From: Cliona cf. orientalis
Lineage: Eukaryota > Porifera > Demospongiae > Clionaida > Clionaidae
Direction: 5' to 3'
NCBI GenBank assembly: GCA_963930775.1
Contig: OZ005707.1
Coordinates: forward strand, 930,001-994,000
DNA: 64,000 bases
Part shown: positions 53,161-63,700 of the stretch, piece by piece
How the letters are laid out: each line of letters begins with the position of its first letter
Position numbering within the stretch: position 1 is the stretch's first letter
Program-made: the position numbers and the translations under genes
Notes under the pieces: generated by a model
Told to the model about the DNA's origin: nothing
Database searches by the model: none
What the model saw: the letters and a program-made list of their open reading frames with translations, nothing else

Positions 53161-56100
53161 TCACGCCATAAACACACTGTCCTCCTCAATGAGAACACGA
53201 CTTACATCGTGTGGCTCAGATACTGTGCTCCAAGTGCGACCTAACCTACCAGTACGTGCATGGGTGATCACTACAGTCGTAGACCTGGCACTAGCACTCT
53301 CTGATCTTTGATTTTGGGGGCCTCCCCCTCCTCTCCCTCCTCCTCCTCCTCCTCTAGGGGACAGGAAAGCTGCCGTGGGTATTGCTGTATCTGGCCTTGA
53401 GGTCAAATTGGGAGTGGGGTTGCTCTTTCTGCGAGGAGCGGTGGACATAGAGCTGATTTTTGGGGCGGTCGACGTGAATCGTTGCACGGTGCTTTTTCGC
53501 ATGCGCGATTTGATGGTGACTCGGGAGTCTGCGTGGGCCACGGATGGTGCAAGGATGTTGCTTTGCGTGTTGGAGTCCTCCTCGATCCAGTATGTGGCCC
53601 TGGTAGTGTTCTAGAGAGGTTGTGTATTATTGATTTTTAAAACATGCGAGTGTTGTTACAGTATAGTAGTCTAGACATTGCAAGATAGCTATGTGCCACA
53701 TTATTTGGGATTCAAATTTTGTATCATAACTTACCACAAACTCAGTATCCTTGTTATAAGTTACAATGAATCCCTGCTCTTTCTCTAGCTCCTTAGCCAC
53801 TGCCTCACTTGCAAGAATCTTACCATCTGTTATTATTATGTATATGTATCATAAAAATTAATATCATTAATAGTTTTGTCCTCCCTGACAGTGTCTCAAG
53901 TGTATGACAGTGGTTTCATAATCTGTTATAATGTACGTACCTTTGCTTGCTTGCATCAAGTGTTTGGTGTACTCTATGTTCTCCCCATAAGCAACAAACT
54001 GGGGGACAGGGTCCTCCAAAACTCCACAAGTGAAGTCACCTAGTATACAACAACTAACCGTTTAATAGCATGGGCAATATGAATGCAAAATAAATATTAT
54101 GTCCTAAATTAAAATTATTACCAGCATGAAGGCCCAAGCGTAGGGTGGGGTGCATAATATCAGTAAGGCCCGGTAGAAAGATTCCACTGAAATTTTCTAT
54201 AATTGCAATAGCAGCATTGACAGCTTCACTGGTAGGATTGGATGCCGTGCCCTCCTGGAGAACTGTGGCAAGTATCCCTGCATGCAATAGAGAATGTGCA
54301 TCACCACTGAGTCTGATTCCTTTAGTGTAAGAAAACATACATGTTGTTCCAGTTGAGTATAACTTTTGAATGTGAAAGGAGCGAGTGACCCCTTCAATAG
54401 CCTTCTGCATGGTAATGATCACTTTCTCTGCCACTTCTGGACTCAAATGCTGTAAAAGTAGCTCAGTATTCGTCATCTCCCTATGATAATAATAGTACAG
54501 TCGTTACTATTAATAGAATGATCTAGCACTAATTATGACTTGTAAGTTTACAGGGAAAGAAGTGTCTTGTTAGTTTGCTGAGAGAGGGGGATCTTTTTTC
54601 CTGCTTGAATAGCTGTTGCCAACTTTCTTGGGAGGTAATCTGTATAGGGGCAAGTCGATTGATCGATTTTAAACGTACTGTCAAAATGATAGTATGTACT
54701 TTGCATGAAATCATTGCTGTGTTCCTTTTCCTGTTGTAGCAGTTGTGATAACCAATCTACTTTTTCCTCCAGTTTGCGGGTATACACTTGTAACTGCATT
54801 ACAATCAGCGAGAACACAGTAATATCCATGCATTAATACAAACACATTTCAACCCCACTTTCAATCTATATATTGTAGCTATAATATTATGCATGTGTAC
54901 AAGGCTAATCCATAGAACATTGCGAGCTGGAATGACTCTGTATCACATTACTTCCTGTTTGCTCACAATTCCTTTATGCTCATTATCTTTTGATGTTGAG
55001 AAATGCTTTGACATCTGACGAAGCTCAATCTTTATGTCTTCAAAGGACGGCCTGTGTTGGGGTTCGTTTTTAAGGCACCTCTGCTGCAGCTAGAAAATGA
55101 ACAAAATAATGAAGTTTATCTACTTTTTACTTCGCTTCCATGCAATCTATATTATTTTTATCGACAAAATTAATGCTGGTGAATTAAGTAGTTCCATTGA
55201 CTCAGAGCCTTAATGAAGCCTAATTTGGTCTGAATAGAGAAATTTTGGGAGATTTTATGAAACCCACAAGTGCTTTAGGACACCAAGCTAATTTAAGCCC
55301 CTTGCATGCATGGTGCCTTAGGTCTTTTGTTGAGGTGGCTGGCCCACCTAGCTAGTGCTGCACTGCACTGGTGAGGCCCAATTAGCCCGAAACAGCTATC
55401 TGCAGTTGCACTGTTGGCACCTACTTTTTGAAAGTTGTGCAGCTGGCTACCCTATTTTTAGCCGACCTCTATAGTGTTATACATGTCTACTTCTACACTC
55501 AGAAGCTTACATGTACCTTTATAAATTTATCAGATTCTTGATTTCGAAAGCTTCCCTGAGTGTTTATTCGTAGAGGCCTAATACTGGGCAATGCCATGTC
55601 CCTACTACTTCTTTCAGTGCCAGCTGGTAAGCTCTTTATGACAGAGAGGTCCTCCAGAATGTGTCCATAAGCATACACATCACTAGCCGGGGAGCCAGTG
55701 TCACCCAACCTTCGAATTTCGGGCGCAATTTTATTCCTTGGTGTTTTCCTTGAGACGTGGCCATGGGCATGTGTGTTGCCGGCCTGGGAGTCAGTGTGGA
55801 CCAAGTTTCGAAGTTTGAGTGCAGTTTTGTTCCATAGTGTCCTCCTTGAGTTCCACTGTAAATGCATGCATGAAGAGAGATAGCGAGAGGGGAGGGGGGA
55901 AGGAGGGAGAGAGACAGACAGGGAGGGGGGAGGAGGGGGAGGGAGAGAGAGAGAGAGAGAACAGGCATATGAAGCCATGCTCTATAAACTTAGCTAGCTG
56001 CTTACTGTGTCCTTCACCGCGCGCAATGATTGCAGCCCATAATCTGTTGAAAGATGGTGGTGAATGGTTTATGTCACATCTGGTGAATCAAACTCCCAAC

Positions 56101-59100
56101 AATTAGCTACTGAGAGGCTCGCTGAAACATTCACCTTGTATTTTCAGTGTCCACTCTTCATTTATCATACAGTTGCCTGAACTCAATCTCCCGTGGATGA
56201 TCTTCTTTGAGTGAAGGAACGCCATAGCCTGTGCAGCGTCTAAGGCAAACGATAGCTTGAAGATCCAGTCAAACTGGATATCCGAGCGAAGGAGTATGCT
56301 CTCGAGACTGCCTCTTGTACAGTGTTCAAAGAGAAGGGAAATGCAAGACTTCCTGAAGAGGCAGCCATGAAACGTGCAGATATTCTGATGCTTGAGATCC
56401 CTATATTATATAGTACATAGTACGAGCAGGGATTAATACATACGTGATTAAAAGTACATTCTATGTACATTAGGAGATTGGCTTCTTCATAGGCTTTTCT
56501 TGTGAGTATATTTTTCTCCAAATCGAAATCAATCTTGATAACGTCCACTATTGCACCTCCATGCTTTCTAAAAATAGCATAATTTATTATTGGACATCAT
56601 AATAGTGTATATAGCTGAGTGAGTGAAAGAGCTGTCCTTACATTCGTGCTATATTCTCCTGTCCTTTCTTGCCAAATCCTGACCGCAATGCTTGAACATT
56701 GATCAGTCTGCCTCGAATCCCTTGTTCCTCTGTCATGCAGGCCAGGAATAATAATAATAATATATACCATAATTATAGCCAGAAATATTGGCGGGAATTA
56801 AATTTGGCAGTTGAGCCCAAAATCACTATTGCAAGAATATTGGTAGATTTAAATTTGGCGGTTCGGTACGGGATCACCATACGTATATATATGCGAGTAG
56901 GAAATTTTGGCGGATTATAATTAATTTTGGCAGTTGTAATATCGACCACCAACCGCCAAATTTTCCGGCTATTCTCATTCAGTTTGTTGTACCATTAAGT
57001 ATTTAATTAGGAGAAGTACTGTACCAAGCTGCAGCCCGACAATGGCAGTGTGCTTATACACCCACTGTACCTCCTACCCTTTGGTAGACTACTAGCTAGT
57101 ATTATTATTATCAAGCTACCGTATCCGATCTAATTAACGCACCTCTCTAATAGATGCGCCACCTCGGCCTAAAGTACAATTTTCACGTTCTATTTAAATG
57201 CGCCCAGCCACGCGTCCCTATACGTTTGTGTACAAATTTTGCGCGCCACCTGGTCGCAAAGGATAATTTTCACGCTCTAATGGCGCGCCACACAGCACTC
57301 GTAATTATTTTTTCAAGGCGCATTAATTAGATCGGATACGGTATATCATTCTAGTATGTGACCATAACACTTGATTACCTTGTAAGAAGTCGATATCTTC
57401 TTCATGTTGAATCCAGTTGCTGTTATGAAGCAAAGCCTTTCTGTCCTCAAAGTAGATGAATGTAGCATATCCCGCCACGCTGACTAGGAAGACCAGTGAG
57501 CTGATTATCGTTGTGAGAATCACTCTCGTATTACCTATTATAGGTAATAATTAATACCTCAATCTTTGGACTCGTTATTACGCTGTCGATCAGTAGTATA
57601 TTGCTATATAATTTAGCATTTAGTATTCTCTAGATGTACATGTAGGATAGAAACCAACCTCAGGCATGTGAAGTACGTACCTACATGTGCTCCCTATAGC
57701 ACCCTCTAATTATCCCTGCTAGCTAGAGTTCTATAATAATATTTATTATGAGATTGTATTAATACTTACTGCGGACAAATATCCTATAAGGTCTATCAAG
57801 TGGAACATTGGTCGTCCCATCATGAAAAACAATAGTAGGTACTTCGGATCTGTTTCCATTTTCATCGAAGTAGAACAGATTAATTTGCCCATCTGTCAAT
57901 ATTTCCAAGCACAGTCGAATTTGAACCTTCCATGGATCTTCAGTTAGTGACGTATTCACGGAGAAATTGGCATTATCGATGGGTACAAAATTCCTCAGGT
58001 CCACCTGAGACACTAGTCTTCTGCCAAATTGTGTAAAGCTGACGTTACCTGTGACTCCACCATAAAAGGCCAAATTTCTTAGTTTGTGTGCTAAAATACT
58101 GCGATCGCCCGCAACAATTTCAATCTGTTCTGTTGTCACATTTAGTTTGGCAGCTTTCGCATTTATTAGCTCATCGAGAGCATCTGCGATCACGTGTAAG
58201 GAGTCATGAATATAGGGTGTCTGTAGAAAATGCTGATGGTGCAGGTATATATCATCCCCAGTTATACGAAAAGCCTCTTCGTGAAAGTCCGTGAGAAAGT
58301 GTTCACGTTCCGGTCCCATTCCTTCACTGATACCAAGCAGCAGGGAACCTCTAAGAGCATTCTTCAACTTGAAGATAGTTTCATTGCTGTAGTGACACCA
58401 CACGTTTGAGTACTCTTCGGGAAACACCACATTGTGGTAGGGAAATATCCACACATTACTGTAGTACATAGGATAGGATTAGTACTTTAATCACCGACAA
58501 TAAATTTTAACTTACGATGCTTCTTATTTTTCTGCAAAATAATTATATTAGTGGCAGTATTCTTTCTTTCTATTAATAACTAGCTAAATCTGGAGCTTAT
58601 GTTTTAATTCAGAGTTCGTAGCTACTGAGTGAAAATCTTACTCATTTCCAACAAATCCATATCCCATTGCTTCATTTAGAACATCCAAGTATGAAGGGGG
58701 AGGGCCATGGTACACCATAATCTTAATCTCACTCTTGAACAAGGCCTCAAACGTCACATAGGGGTTTGACTCCACATACTGCACCAGCACCATTCTGCAT
58801 GTATCATGAATGAATCATCAAACTGCAGTTTCTGTTACTTAATTTTTATTATTGTAATAATACCGGTAGCCTCATAAAATAGCCTCACCTCCAGGCGACT
58901 CCCAAATTTTCAACATTGAAAAACCGGGAGTGCATGGTCTGGGGACAAGGCCAATAGTACTAAAATATGCCACGAGTTCTCATCAGTTTTGTGCTAGACC
59001 ACTAACACTTACTAATTAGATGTAGACTTACCTTATGTTTCCGAAGTATAATTCTTGTGTATCAACCTGTGTAGCATCACTGTTGGCTATAATGATACCA

Positions 59101-60215
59101 ATATGTTTCCAGCCCAGTTCTCTAGCTAAACCACACAGAGCTTTTATTGGAATGGTTGTATCGGGACCAACTGAGAAAAGATACTGATTTATCAACATTT
59201 GGAGGACATCTTCAGACTGCTGGTTTGAATCACGCCTGGATCTCTCTTGAAATACTTTAATAAGCTCCTCAGTTGTTGCAAAATCCATTTCATTGGTTGT
59301 ATGTCGAACAAGAGGCACTTCATGTGGTAGCAGTAGACCTTGCAAAATACCCAACCAACTATTTGGTGCAACGTCAATTACTACTGGTGTTTCACTGTGG
59401 ATTATATCTTCCAGTGTGGTTGATATCAATTGGGAGATGTCTGGAGAGATGGCTAGTTGGAGACAAATGTGATGATGGGGTAGAATTTCTGGGTCGTCGT
59501 TTATCTCTTGAGCTGCAATCCATAGGGTTATGAGATACTCTGAAAAAAAAAGAAAGAAATGGGGTAAAGGATATGTATACACTGTACAGATCAGCTGCTC
59601 TCAATACAGATGTATATAGCCAGCTATCAGGTTAACCAAAGGATCTGTTACAGTGTTATGCTCCAGATCTAGCACGTACATGTTTTATCAACACAGTCAT
59701 TCATGAAAAGCCCTTTATTAAGCTAAGCCTCGAATCATGGGTCAAAGCTATATTGGATACACACTACTGTGTATTATACCTGGGACAGGTGGGAAGTATC
59801 CTGCAAGATGGAGAGCATCTGAGCAGTTCAAAGAAACATTGTCAGAGTGATGGCCTTTCAGTGCGTTCTTCTGTTCTTTGGTGTACTGAGCGATCAGGGG
59901 GTCCAGCCTACAGCCCACTGCCCCTACAATTATCCGATTCCTTTTGTAAGAGCTGCCAAGATTAGACGTAGGGCATAAGAGCTGTCCAGGTCGAAGGTCA
60001 GTGTCGTTGATCCCAAATGCGATGAGAGCATTAAGAATGGCATCGTTGACACTCAATTCAATATCTTTTTGCAGTATACCACTGGTAATTACGTAGTCAT
60101 CTACTCTTTCTGGTTCAGTTGCCACTACTTCTAGTATCTGTTCCTCGGAGTTTTGATCATGTGCTCCACCAGTTCCAAGCAGCAGCAGCAACAAAAAAAG
60201 TGACGACAGCTGCAT
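53161..60215 (-). CDS. Receptor guanylyl cyclase-like protein with inactive kinase and cyclase domains
   Basis: Exons (high to low): 60215-59780, 59539-59032, 58794-58642, 58458-57770, 57534-57379, 56729-56642, 56567-56469, 56400-56135, 56043-56006, 55855-55517, 55089-54952, 54793-54700, 54639-54552, 54480-54122, 54039-53941, 53826-53735, 53610-53161. Phases join, giving 1,363 residues. A signal peptide (MQLSSLFLLLLLLGTGG) precedes an ANF-receptor-type ligand-binding region (to about 595), one membrane helix (about 600-624), a kinase-homology domain with the receptor-cyclase signature HGRLSSGNC and a DYG in place of DFG, a coiled coil (KLEEKVDWLSQLLQQEKE), and a class III cyclase-like domain (LRLGLHAG, FVAYGENIEY). 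Both metal-binding Asp sites are lost (IGDAY reads STGTT; DIVGFT is not recognisable), and the NTASR segment reads EYTKH. A Gly/Arg-rich tail ends it. It is probably a ligand-binding scaffold or a decoy partner. Confidence 0.88.
56764..56972 (-). mobile_element. MITE, copy 2 of the CCGGCAAATTTGG family (inverted)
   Basis: The reverse complement of the element at 8248-8462, with the same GAGCCCAAAAATC-type and TATATATGCGAGTAGGAAAT interior words. It lies in a receptor-cyclase intron. Confidence 0.8.
57117..57343. mobile_element. MITE with perfect TACCGTATCCGATCTAATTA ends
   Basis: Inverted repeats of about 21 bp are perfect at both ends, and TA could be the target duplication. The interior has repeated CGCGCCAC and TTTTCACG words. 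It lies in the same receptor-cyclase intron, 36 bp from the exon ending at 57379. Confidence 0.85.
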
Positions 60216-60789: not shown

Positions 60790-63700
60790 CTAAACGGCAT
60801 CATCCGGCTCTAACGGAGTGAAAGCATTGGACTTTAATTTGAAGTGGATCTTTTCACTCCCCGATTCATACGAGACTGCTTCATTTCCGAGCTTTTCTTT
60901 TTGCTCGTACGAGTCCAGCCTTGGTTTCAGCTCACCAAAGGTGCCAAATGTGCTGCCAGTTTCTGATTCCGTATCACTCCTATAAGTATTGAGTATTAAA
61001 TGGACAATGTCATAGAGTAATAGAGGCTATTATAGGCTTAGGTATAATGTAGATCTCTACATCACAAAGGCATTATAGGCAAAAATAACCTAACTCTAAA
61101 GTAATGATGAATTCTTGTGCGTATATACTCACTCGAACAATCCATAAGCCTGGGCGTCTTTGACCTTCCTCTTTTTGACGATACAGACCACTCCCACTAT
61201 GAATACAGCCACTAGGATGAGTGCCAGAATCACCAGTATGAGAGCTCCAGCAATAATCCCACCGTTAACCCTTCTGGAGCTGACGACAGCAACAGTCGGT
61301 TCTATAGAGAGGGGAGAAGGTGTTTTCACAGTAGTTAGCTACTACTTAGATATACCGTATAGCGGAAAACTTTCGAGGGAGAAAACTTTCACGAATTTCG
61401 CGATTTTTCCGCCATCCGCCATGAAATTCTAGGCATGCCACACCCATTATGCGACCAGTTTTAACATTCCACGAAAGTTTTCTCTGTGAAATGCTCCTTT
61501 CCTACCGATCCGCAAAAGTTTTCTCCCTCGAAAATTTCCTGCTATACGGTATGATAAGGATTATTATTCATAACTAGCTGAGAATTTGGCAGACCACCAG
61601 TCCATTCTATATTCTAGCTACCAGTATGTCAGATCCATAAGCTATAATATCTTATAGCTAGATCATACATGCAAAGTCTCCTAGGGATATATCAGATGCT
61701 ATAGATACCTTCCGTAGTAGTCGGTATTATTGATGGAGTGGGTGGAGTCTTCACTTCTGTGGGTGTGGCTATAGGTGTGACGCTTGCTGATGATGAAATT
61801 GTAGGGGTAGACAGTGGGACAGATGAATTTGAGGGAGGTACTATGGGGAAAATTTTTGATAAGTAATTATTTTTGTGGCAATTATATACTGTACAGCTCT
61901 TATTGCTGTACTTCAAGACACTCACAGCAGATGACTCGAAAGTCATCACAGCAGTCACCAAGGATTTCACAGTCTTGTTCACAGAAACAGGTAGCGGGAT
62001 ATCCAGCACAGTAGCCACCGTCACAGCAGTCCATGTACCCAGCAGCTGCACAAGAGCCTGAAAGGAAATTGTGCAGCTTTAGTTTATACCTATTAAACAC
62101 TGAGAAGTAGAATAATTAGCTGTGATGATGGATTGACCTATAGATATAATATATGGGTACTGTACAGACTGTATAAAGTAACATGGAAGTGGGAGAGGGT
62201 GTTGTCCACAGTTCACTAATTCAAAATCCATGAAGAAACCCAGCCAACTTGATGCATGCATGTGCTTGCATGGACACACCTAGCTAACAAGTTACATACA
62301 ATATATTATGTGATTCACACAAAAACATGAGCCACTTTGGTACCTATAAGCTAGCCTTGAGAACAATAAAGTTATTACTAGGTGGTAACTGTGATAGAAT
62401 TTTGGTTATTAAGGAGTTTTAAGCCTCAGGCTGAGTATGACTTGTATGATAATAATATTATAGTATACCTCTCTGAGGAGGTGCTATGGTGACGTTGGTG
62501 ACCTCAGAACAACTAACTCCATCCCCCAAAAGAGAAGAGCCCTCTGGACAGGCACAGGTGTAGTTTGTAGGAGAAGTTGCACTCAACAGACAAAGGTGGC
62601 TGCACGGACTCCCTTCACAGTAGTTAGTGACTACATAATCATAACAATTTGATAATATAGTTTTAATTTGTACACGGATATTTCTTACTGTTTATCCATT
62701 GGCGATTAGGATCAACGGCCTCAATACCATTTAGAGGCAGAATAATACTAGTGTACACTGAAAGAGGGCTACCAGCTGCTTGCTTGTGTGCTGTGTAGAT
62801 GGTGAAATTTGCCCAGTCTGTCCAGTAGACCTGGTCCCCACTGATAGTGATGGCAAATGGGTGATGGAGACCAGTGGCAACCGTTAAGAGAATCTCTCGT
62901 CCAGTTCCATCGACGCTGGAATATTCGATCCTGTCAGTGAATGCATCAGCCCAGTACAGCCTCTGTAGCTGGTAGTCAATGGCCAAACCATTAGGCCATG
63001 TCAGACGAGTATTATGGAGAACTATTCGATTGCTGCCATCCATGGAAGCTCGCTCAATCTTAGCAGGTTCCCCCCAGTCAGTCCAATACATGTACCTGTA
63101 AGAGTTATAATATGATGACACATTGACAGAATAATAGTAACATTAATTTTCATACATATACCTTGTGCTTGGGTCAACAACTATAGCTTTAGGTGCGGAA
63201 TGGGCGTCGGTACGCAACAGCTCAGTTTTGTATTCCAAATCGATATCTAATACTTCCAGTCTGCGATTCAGTGTGTCAGTCCAGTAGAGGTTATTGGTAA
63301 TCCAGTCCACAGCCAGATCCTCTGTAAGTAAAAGTTCAAAAAATTAATGGTGTATAATTGTCTTGGGCTTGTCAGATCATTTTCGTGCTAACAATTTTCA
63401 TGATTGACGATCCCTGCATGCTATGGACCAATTAGCTATAGACTATGCTTGCCCTTACCTCACTGTATACTATAATCATTAAACACTTAGCATATTATTG
63501 TATTATCGTATATTATTGCATTACCTATAAATTGGAGACTCGGTATGCTAGCGGCAACCAAAGTTTCTGAAGTGGAACCGTTGAATCCCACTCTTCCGAT
63601 CAATCCTTGTCCAATGAGATCAGAATAGTAGACGTACTGATTTCTATGTTAATACATTGAAATAACATGAGTATCATTACATTATATATAGCTATTAATG

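Follow-up and report, generated by a model that had tools for sequence, protein, structure and literature searches.

A receptor guanylyl cyclase is by definition a single chain that combines sensing with the making of cyclic guanosine monophosphate (cGMP), and the locus described here raises the question of what such a chain may be kept for once its chemistry appears to be gone. The locus lies in a 64,000-nucleotide window (the whole stretch of DNA analysed) of the sponge Cliona cf. orientalis, positions 930,001 to 994,000 of contig OZ005707.1 in assembly GCA_963930775.1, designated C19:930001-994000 in searches of its own genome, which covered 149 contigs of a 217-Mb assembly. On the minus strand, 60215-53161 carries a gene for which an 18-exon model gives 1342 codons with a single terminal stop and no internal stop. 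Judged from its sequence, the product is probably a receptor of receptor guanylyl cyclase descent whose cyclase domain is a pseudoenzyme with the fold apparently kept, and it is very likely to be devoid of cyclase activity.

The initial annotation had proposed the complete plan of a receptor cyclase, and all of its parts are matched. Three readings of the gene (16, 17 and 18 exons, the last preferred) served as queries, and each result is given with its reading. In Pfam, the 16-exon protein matches PF01094, an ANF-receptor-type ectodomain, at residues 263-522 (E 6.9e-12, 45.5 bits, cut-off 25.4), and PF07714 (PK_Tyr_Ser-Thr) over the kinase-homology domain (E 4.4e-27). Nine N-glycosylation sequons lie in the extracellular part, and the topology predicted from sequence has one membrane helix at residues 600-618, where the top 19-residue hydropathy is 2.15 and the next best 1.46. 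Within the kinase-homology domain, HGRLSSGNC (from 56195) replaces the HRD loop and DYG replaces DFG. When the inside part (17-exon reading) is compared with solved chains, NPR1 (three sequences) and GC-C take the top four places of 1253, above LIM kinase and B-Raf, with E-values of about 1e-35 for NPR1 and 1.6e-27 for GC-C; these values sum two matched stretches, the best of which (query 69-183 and 70-190) fall within the kinase-homology domain. A coil follows, and then a C-terminal class III cyclase fold, recognised as a sequence match to PF00211 (Guanylate_cyc) at E 4.2e-11 and 43.2 bits (cut-off 21.9) for the 18-exon cyclase part and at 8.9e-7 for the 16-exon whole protein. The cyclase part alone (16-exon reading) finds only weak relatives among solved chains, the best being a nucleotide cyclase at 0.0018.

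The residues that carry out catalysis can be judged against two receptor cyclases of the same genome. A PF00211 search of the assembly returned 31 exon-level matches, the window gene not being among them, and 14 stretches covering these 31 places were taken for comparison. With the inside part of NPR1 as query, a clear kinase-homology match stands beside the cyclase in L031 (C15:3.43 Mb) and L032 (C14:8.08 Mb), both of which, once spliced, carry SDIVGFT, VETIGDAYM and VNTASR; the cyclase counterpart in L031 matches Guanylate_cyc at 2.7e-62. L031 is also the best non-self match of the window inside part in a protein search with the 16-exon reading (E 2.9e-22, 49% identity over one exon). In the alignment of the window chain with L031, L032 and NPR1, all seven catalytic positions checked are replaced: the first metal-binding Asp by Glu (codon 54479-54477) and the second by Thr (54347-54345), the purine-binding Glu by Tyr (54359-54357) and Cys by Val (53995-53993), the transition-state Asn by Glu (53974-53972) and Arg by His (53962-53960), and the phosphate-binding Lys by Val (53737-53735, the last codon of exon 17). 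The roles named here are those of these positions in class III cyclases. As first annotated, IGDAY reads STGTT, here followed by W, and NTASR reads EYTKH; the ERT of the signalling helix in the coil reads WLS.

These replacements stand in a domain that has diverged as a whole. Over the coil and cyclase, the window chain shares 21.2% of residues with L031 (47/222) and 16.7% with L032 (39/233), whereas L031 and L032 share 59.5% (132/222), and it keeps 27 of 116 invariant columns (5/11 in the coil, 22/105 after it). Over the kinase-homology domain the corresponding identities are 32.9% (82/249), 29.3% (71/242) and 34.6% (84/243), and 41 are kept of the 63 columns in which the three reference chains are identical. 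Judged by these alignments, sequence constraint has been lost mainly in the output domain. The initial annotation regarded both inside domains as catalytically dead. For the cyclase this is borne out at seven of seven positions and is the unusual part; a dead kinase-homology domain is the norm in the receptor cyclase family, as stated in the available portion of PMC1435932.

An active cyclase masked by an error in the gene model or assembly would give the same impression, and the exon structure bears on this point. Exon edges were set on the genomic DNA alone, manually and with a spliced aligner, and were chosen partly by GT-AG sites and an open frame, so that the GT-AG ends of all 17 introns and the open frame itself are partly built in. 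Most edges of the inside part were nevertheless recovered by spliced alignment with the NPR1 query, which lends the model independent support: 56469, 56400-56135, 55089-54952, 54793-54700, 54639-54552, 54480, 54122, 54039-53941 and 53826-53735 came back unchanged, and the two differed over where exon 7 starts, where exon 9 stops, both boundaries of exon 10 and the exon 14/15 junction. Two other open-frame models, one of 16 exons that reads introns 54699-54640 and 54340-54278 as coding and one of 17 exons that still reads 54340-54278 so, were rejected on the intron positions of L031 and L032. The 18-exon model, which replaces the 17 exons originally claimed, is preferred for creating exons that match those of the two paralogs in length and phase. 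From the coil on, exons of 94, 88 and 140 nucleotides (nt) are common to the window, L031 and L032 with agreeing phases; the next cyclase exons measure 156 + 99 nt in the window versus 252 nt in the paralogs, and the last measures 92 nt in the window and L032 and was modelled at 123 nt in L031, where its end is uncertain. It is the removal of the 63-nt intron 14 (54340-54278) that brings the preceding exon to the 140 nt of L031 and L032, and it improves the PF00211 match of the cyclase part from 2.7e-8 (17-exon) to 4.2e-11 (18-exon). This intron was proposed by the spliced aligner with the L031 query, whereas the NPR1 query gave 54363-54313 instead. Since the 16-exon frame is also open, isoforms that retain both 54699-54640 and 54340-54278 are possible.

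The same comparison locates the first metal motif, which had been described as not recognisable. It is alignable, SDIVGFT facing LEMTNTE without a gap, and the 71-nt intron before LEMTNT has the same position and phase as the intron before SDIVGF in the paralogs. Together with the matching exon lengths and phases, this indicates that SDIVGF was substituted in place and not spliced out; deletion of DIVGF through a shifted acceptor was rejected, since the gap-free alignment and the 140-nt exon are consistent with substitution. Nor was there any sign of alternative splicing between 54552 and 54480 by which DIVGFT and GDAY would be restored, an outcome that the initial annotation had named as fatal to its claim: six regular-expression patterns, including NTASR-like ones, run over the six frames of 61500-52000 found no SDIVGF- or GDAY-like peptide, and their sole match was an NTASR-like NISSR at 58603, outside the cyclase. 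An error of model or assembly draws some credit from the first open model having missed two introns and from aligner edges around 54364-54278 that vary with the query. It is nonetheless extremely unlikely, given that the exons flanking the first metal motif equal those of intact-motif paralogs in length and phase, that the six frames lack the missing peptides, and that the 71-nt intron is too short to hide an exon.

The consequence of the replacements depends on how such enzymes are built. The active site of a class III cyclase spans both chains of the dimer, one supplying the pair of metal-binding Asp residues and the other the purine-binding residues, Asn, Arg and Lys. The window chain supplies neither half-site, so that no complete site would form in a homodimer or in any mixed dimer. 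This bears on the earlier suggestion that the receptor signals by dimerising with an active partner, which is disfavoured if cGMP is meant, the chain being without both sets of catalytic residues. It also makes very unlikely a half-site partnership of the ODR-1/DAF-11 kind, in which the chain would complete an active site with a cyclase missing the opposite half, even though such partnerships have precedent in the available portions of PMC5225109 and PMC8045692. One locus of the genome could be thought of as such a partner. L042 (2163-2993, minus strand; C5:7.71 Mb) holds a divergent cyclase-like frame with a coil upstream, in which SDIVGF is kept, an Asp is seen by eye in ERTSDGC at the GDA position, and the NTASR segment reads RYVSN. 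It has thus kept DIVGF and, by eye, the Asp but not NTASR; the half that it would need is missing from the window chain too, and no kinase-homology domain was found within its fetched 9.9 kb.

Whether the gene is maintained or decaying is a separate matter, and here the pattern of what has been retained is informative. Of the 68 cyclase columns that are hydrophobic in all three references, 47 stay hydrophobic in the window chain; 23.0 would be expected, and none of 20,000 shuffles reached 47. The alignment with L032 and NPR1 needs just two one-residue insertions or deletions before the final residues. Codon usage was scored as log-odds per codon, trained on sequence of L043 and L044 (two long open frames, 2640 codons; L043 resembles a soluble-adenylyl-cyclase-like gene) with the gene's own introns as background. 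Exons 12-17 score 0.142 in frame versus -0.034 and 0.052 in the other frames, the ligand part 0.127 versus 0.081 and 0.054, and the tail in exon 18 0.224 versus 0.071 and 0.152. As hydrophobic positions and some coding bias persist, the domain looks like a maintained pseudocyclase, and the gene is likely to encode a maintained protein and not to be dying. What appears to have been kept is the fold, not the chemistry. That the output domain is inactive while the rest of the gene is sound, as originally proposed, is supported by the sequence.

The opposite view, that this is a recent or dying pseudogene whose function is lost, whose cyclase end is drifting and whose frame is open by luck or recency, draws on exon 10. 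An in-frame tandem duplication with a 96-nt offset, absent from the initial annotation, lies there, 60 of 89 bases being identical versus a maximum of 41 in 5000 Markov shuffles; APE and SDVYAYG are kept in the copy nearer the C-terminus and are both missing from the upstream copy. Only 12 of 29 residues agree between the copies and the mismatches are spread evenly over the codon positions (9, 9 and 11), which suggests that one copy is probably free of constraint. Splicing out of the first copy was considered and rejected, since the acceptors seen by hand at the second copy do not match the exon 9 donor in phase. Decay could likewise be read from the 89 of 116 invariant coil-plus-cyclase columns that have changed and from the weakly discriminating codon score. 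Against it, neutral drift to about 21% identity should by inference have broken the frame, yet 1342 codons run without a stop; three exons equal those of the paralogs to the base, the hydrophobic columns exceed expectation, and the modelled frame of the cyclase exons clearly outscores the other two. Broken frames or splice sites, by which a pseudogene would be recognised, are not seen in the 18-exon model and its GT-AG introns, with the reservation already made on how these were chosen. Decay is accordingly improbable.

Several points weigh against a maintained, inactive receptor and are best taken together. The exon 10 duplication with its evenly spread mismatches and the replaced ERT of the coil could each signal relaxed constraint, and 6 of 13 invariant glycines are lost from the cyclase alignment, 7 being kept. 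The Asp-to-Glu change at the first metal position is conservative, and weak metal binding is conceivable. The codon score discriminates weakly, as the kinase-homology exons illustrate (0.132 in frame versus 0.074 and 0.117), and persistence over time is suggested only by the open frame, the retained hydrophobicity and a modest coding bias. Finally, loose tblastn of the ectodomain against the other fetched cyclase loci gave no similarity (best E 2.9), so that a ligand common to this receptor and the active ones, which would favour silencing, is unsupported.

For a maintained pseudocyclase, the likeliest use is a negative or passive one. The receptor would reach the surface, bind an extracellular ligand and dimerise through its ligand domain, kinase-homology domain, coil and cyclase fold, making no cGMP. 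It could pair with an active receptor cyclase, of which the genome has two with intact motifs, and leave a dimer without a working site; alternatively, it might serve as a receptor-shaped sink or scaffold that holds a ligand or binding partners. A role as silencing partner or ligand sink is put forward tentatively, at somewhat less than an even chance. More tentative still is the broader proposal that this receptor lineage has given up cGMP, both inside domains being pseudoenzymes, and has become a scaffold for cGMP-independent signalling or a receptor dedicated to silencing active receptor cyclases. A somewhat less likely alternative is that the protein signals independently of cGMP, its kinase-homology domain and basic Ser/Pro-rich tail recruiting proteins and its cyclase fold acting as a dimer clamp. 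The contrast between the two inside domains is consistent with this, the kinase-homology domain showing much the same identity to L031 (32.9%) as the two paralogs show to each other (34.6%), with 41 of 63 invariant columns held and the cyclase released, and so is the 137-residue tail, which scores best in frame. The exon 10 duplication falls within that very kinase-homology domain, however, and no interaction motif has been identified, none having been searched for systematically.

Further relatives of the gene were sought in the assembly. No second dead copy is among the 82 matches of a protein search with the inside part in the 16-exon reading (best 78 of 732 candidates), and a DNA search with the gene found no place besides itself except those matching a repeat in intron 5 (best 40 of 2957 candidates); a close copy would outrank that repeat and is thus unlikely to have been missed, whereas diverged copies could have been. 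As expected, scans with the inside part found no relative in prokaryote contigs (17-exon reading) or viral contigs (18-exon reading). The ectodomain has no significant relative by sequence among solved chains (best E 0.63), and the extracellular exons that came out when the complete protein was aligned, with splicing, to L031 and L032 were judged spurious. A PF01094 search of the genome gave 110 matches on many contigs (best 110 of 335 candidates), many of them in single open frames of 730-970 codons and in clusters, which presumably belong to an extensive family of class C receptors with few introns.

Table 1. Features of the receptor gene on the minus strand, in window coordinates.
Feature	Coordinates	Strand	Content	Basis
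Exon 1	59780..60215	-	Start codon, hydrophobic signal-like N-terminus (MQLSSLFLLLLLLGTGG), ectodomain start	Model and hydropathy
Exons 2-4	59539-59032, 58794-58642, 58458-57770	-	ANF-receptor-type ligand domain	PF01094, model
Exon 5	57379..57534	-	Single strong membrane helix, residues 600-618	Hydropathy
Exons 6-8	56729-56642, 56567-56469, 56400-56135	-	Kinase-homology domain	PF07714
Exons 9-11	56043-56006, 55855-55517, 55089-54952	-	Kinase-homology domain	PF07714
Tandem duplication, in frame, 96-nt offset	55661..55845	-	Inside exon 10	60/89 bases identical
Exon 12, 94 nt	54700..54793	-	Coiled-coil linker	Length and phase as in L031, L032
Exon 13, 88 nt	54552..54639	-	Cyclase fold start (NYLPRKLATAI...KTLLS)	Length and phase as in L031, L032
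Exon 14, 140 nt	54341..54480	-	LEMTNTE for SDIVGFT; LYSTGTT for VETIGDA	Length as in L031, L032
Intron 14, 63 nt	54278..54340	-	GTATGT...GCAG	Position of the GDA/Y intron of L031 and L032 (L031 query)
Exon 15, 156 nt	54122..54277	-	Cyclase fold, WILATVLQ...LRLGLHA	Model
Exon 16, 99 nt	53941..54039	-	Purine Cys to Val; NTASR reads EYTKH	Model, residue table
Exon 17, 92 nt	53735..53826	-	Cyclase fold end; phosphate Lys to Val	Length as in the L032 exon
Exon 18	53161..53610	-	Fold end (TYW), then 137-residue Ser/Pro/Arg/Gly-rich tail, stop codon	Model, codon usage

The window holds other features as well. Intron 5 contains at 57117-57343 a short repeat, about 230 bp long and with ends that look like inverted repeats (CCGTATCCGATCTAATTAA...TTAATTAGATCGGATACGG), which is matched at 90-95% in at least 39 other places of the genome; from its sequence, it looks like a miniature inverted-repeat transposable element. 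Upstream, at 61338-60790 on the minus strand, lie neighbouring open frames on the same strand as the receptor; one of them contains a membrane-helix-like stretch (GGIIAGALILVILALILVAVFIVGVVCIVKKRK), and the final one stops at 60790, 575 bases before the receptor start codon. At the other end, 1591-1965 on the minus strand is a kinase-like stretch with a weak match to the kinase-homology domain of the window gene (23.8%, E 5e-4), and it is probably part of an unrelated protein kinase.

Among known systems, NPR-C, which has neither a kinase-homology domain nor a cyclase domain, resembles the window protein in a possible use as a ligand sink without cGMP; in contrast to NPR-C, the window protein matches both domains. 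NPR1/GC-A and GC-C share with it the signal-like N-terminus, the ANF-receptor domain, one membrane helix, the HGxLxSxNC pseudokinase, the coil and the class III cyclase fold. It differs from them in the seven replaced catalytic positions and the replaced coil ERT, in the exon 10 duplication, and in an ectodomain without a significant sequence match among solved chains. Incomplete catalytic sets are already known among the receptor cyclases of Caenorhabditis elegans: in ODR-1/DAF-11 each monomer gives essential catalytic residues, according to the available portion of the review PMC5225109, and a number of this worm's receptor cyclases are without some residues, which a complementary partner would supply, according to that of PMC8045692, which cites Morton 2004. 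As these sources describe them, the losses there are complementary and the heterodimer is active, whereas the window chain has lost both halves. In titles and the beginnings of abstracts, no description was found of a receptor cyclase whose cyclase domain is dead throughout, which does not prove its absence, nor of sponge receptor cyclases of such a kind; at that level of the literature, what has not been met is the loss of both halves with the gene structure kept. The trypanosomatid prozyme is comparable in that a dead paralog and its active relatives share a genome; there, as the available portion of PMC5201418 has it, the inactive paralog regulates the active enzyme, whereas the window gene is known from its sequence alone. 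As an isolated case in one species, the gene would be a modest curiosity. If the proposed reading is true, co-expression is predicted to lower, not raise, the cGMP of active receptors, and a maintained member that completes neither half-site, with a pseudocyclase beside a pseudokinase within one receptor, would demonstrate a use for the fold apart from catalysis.

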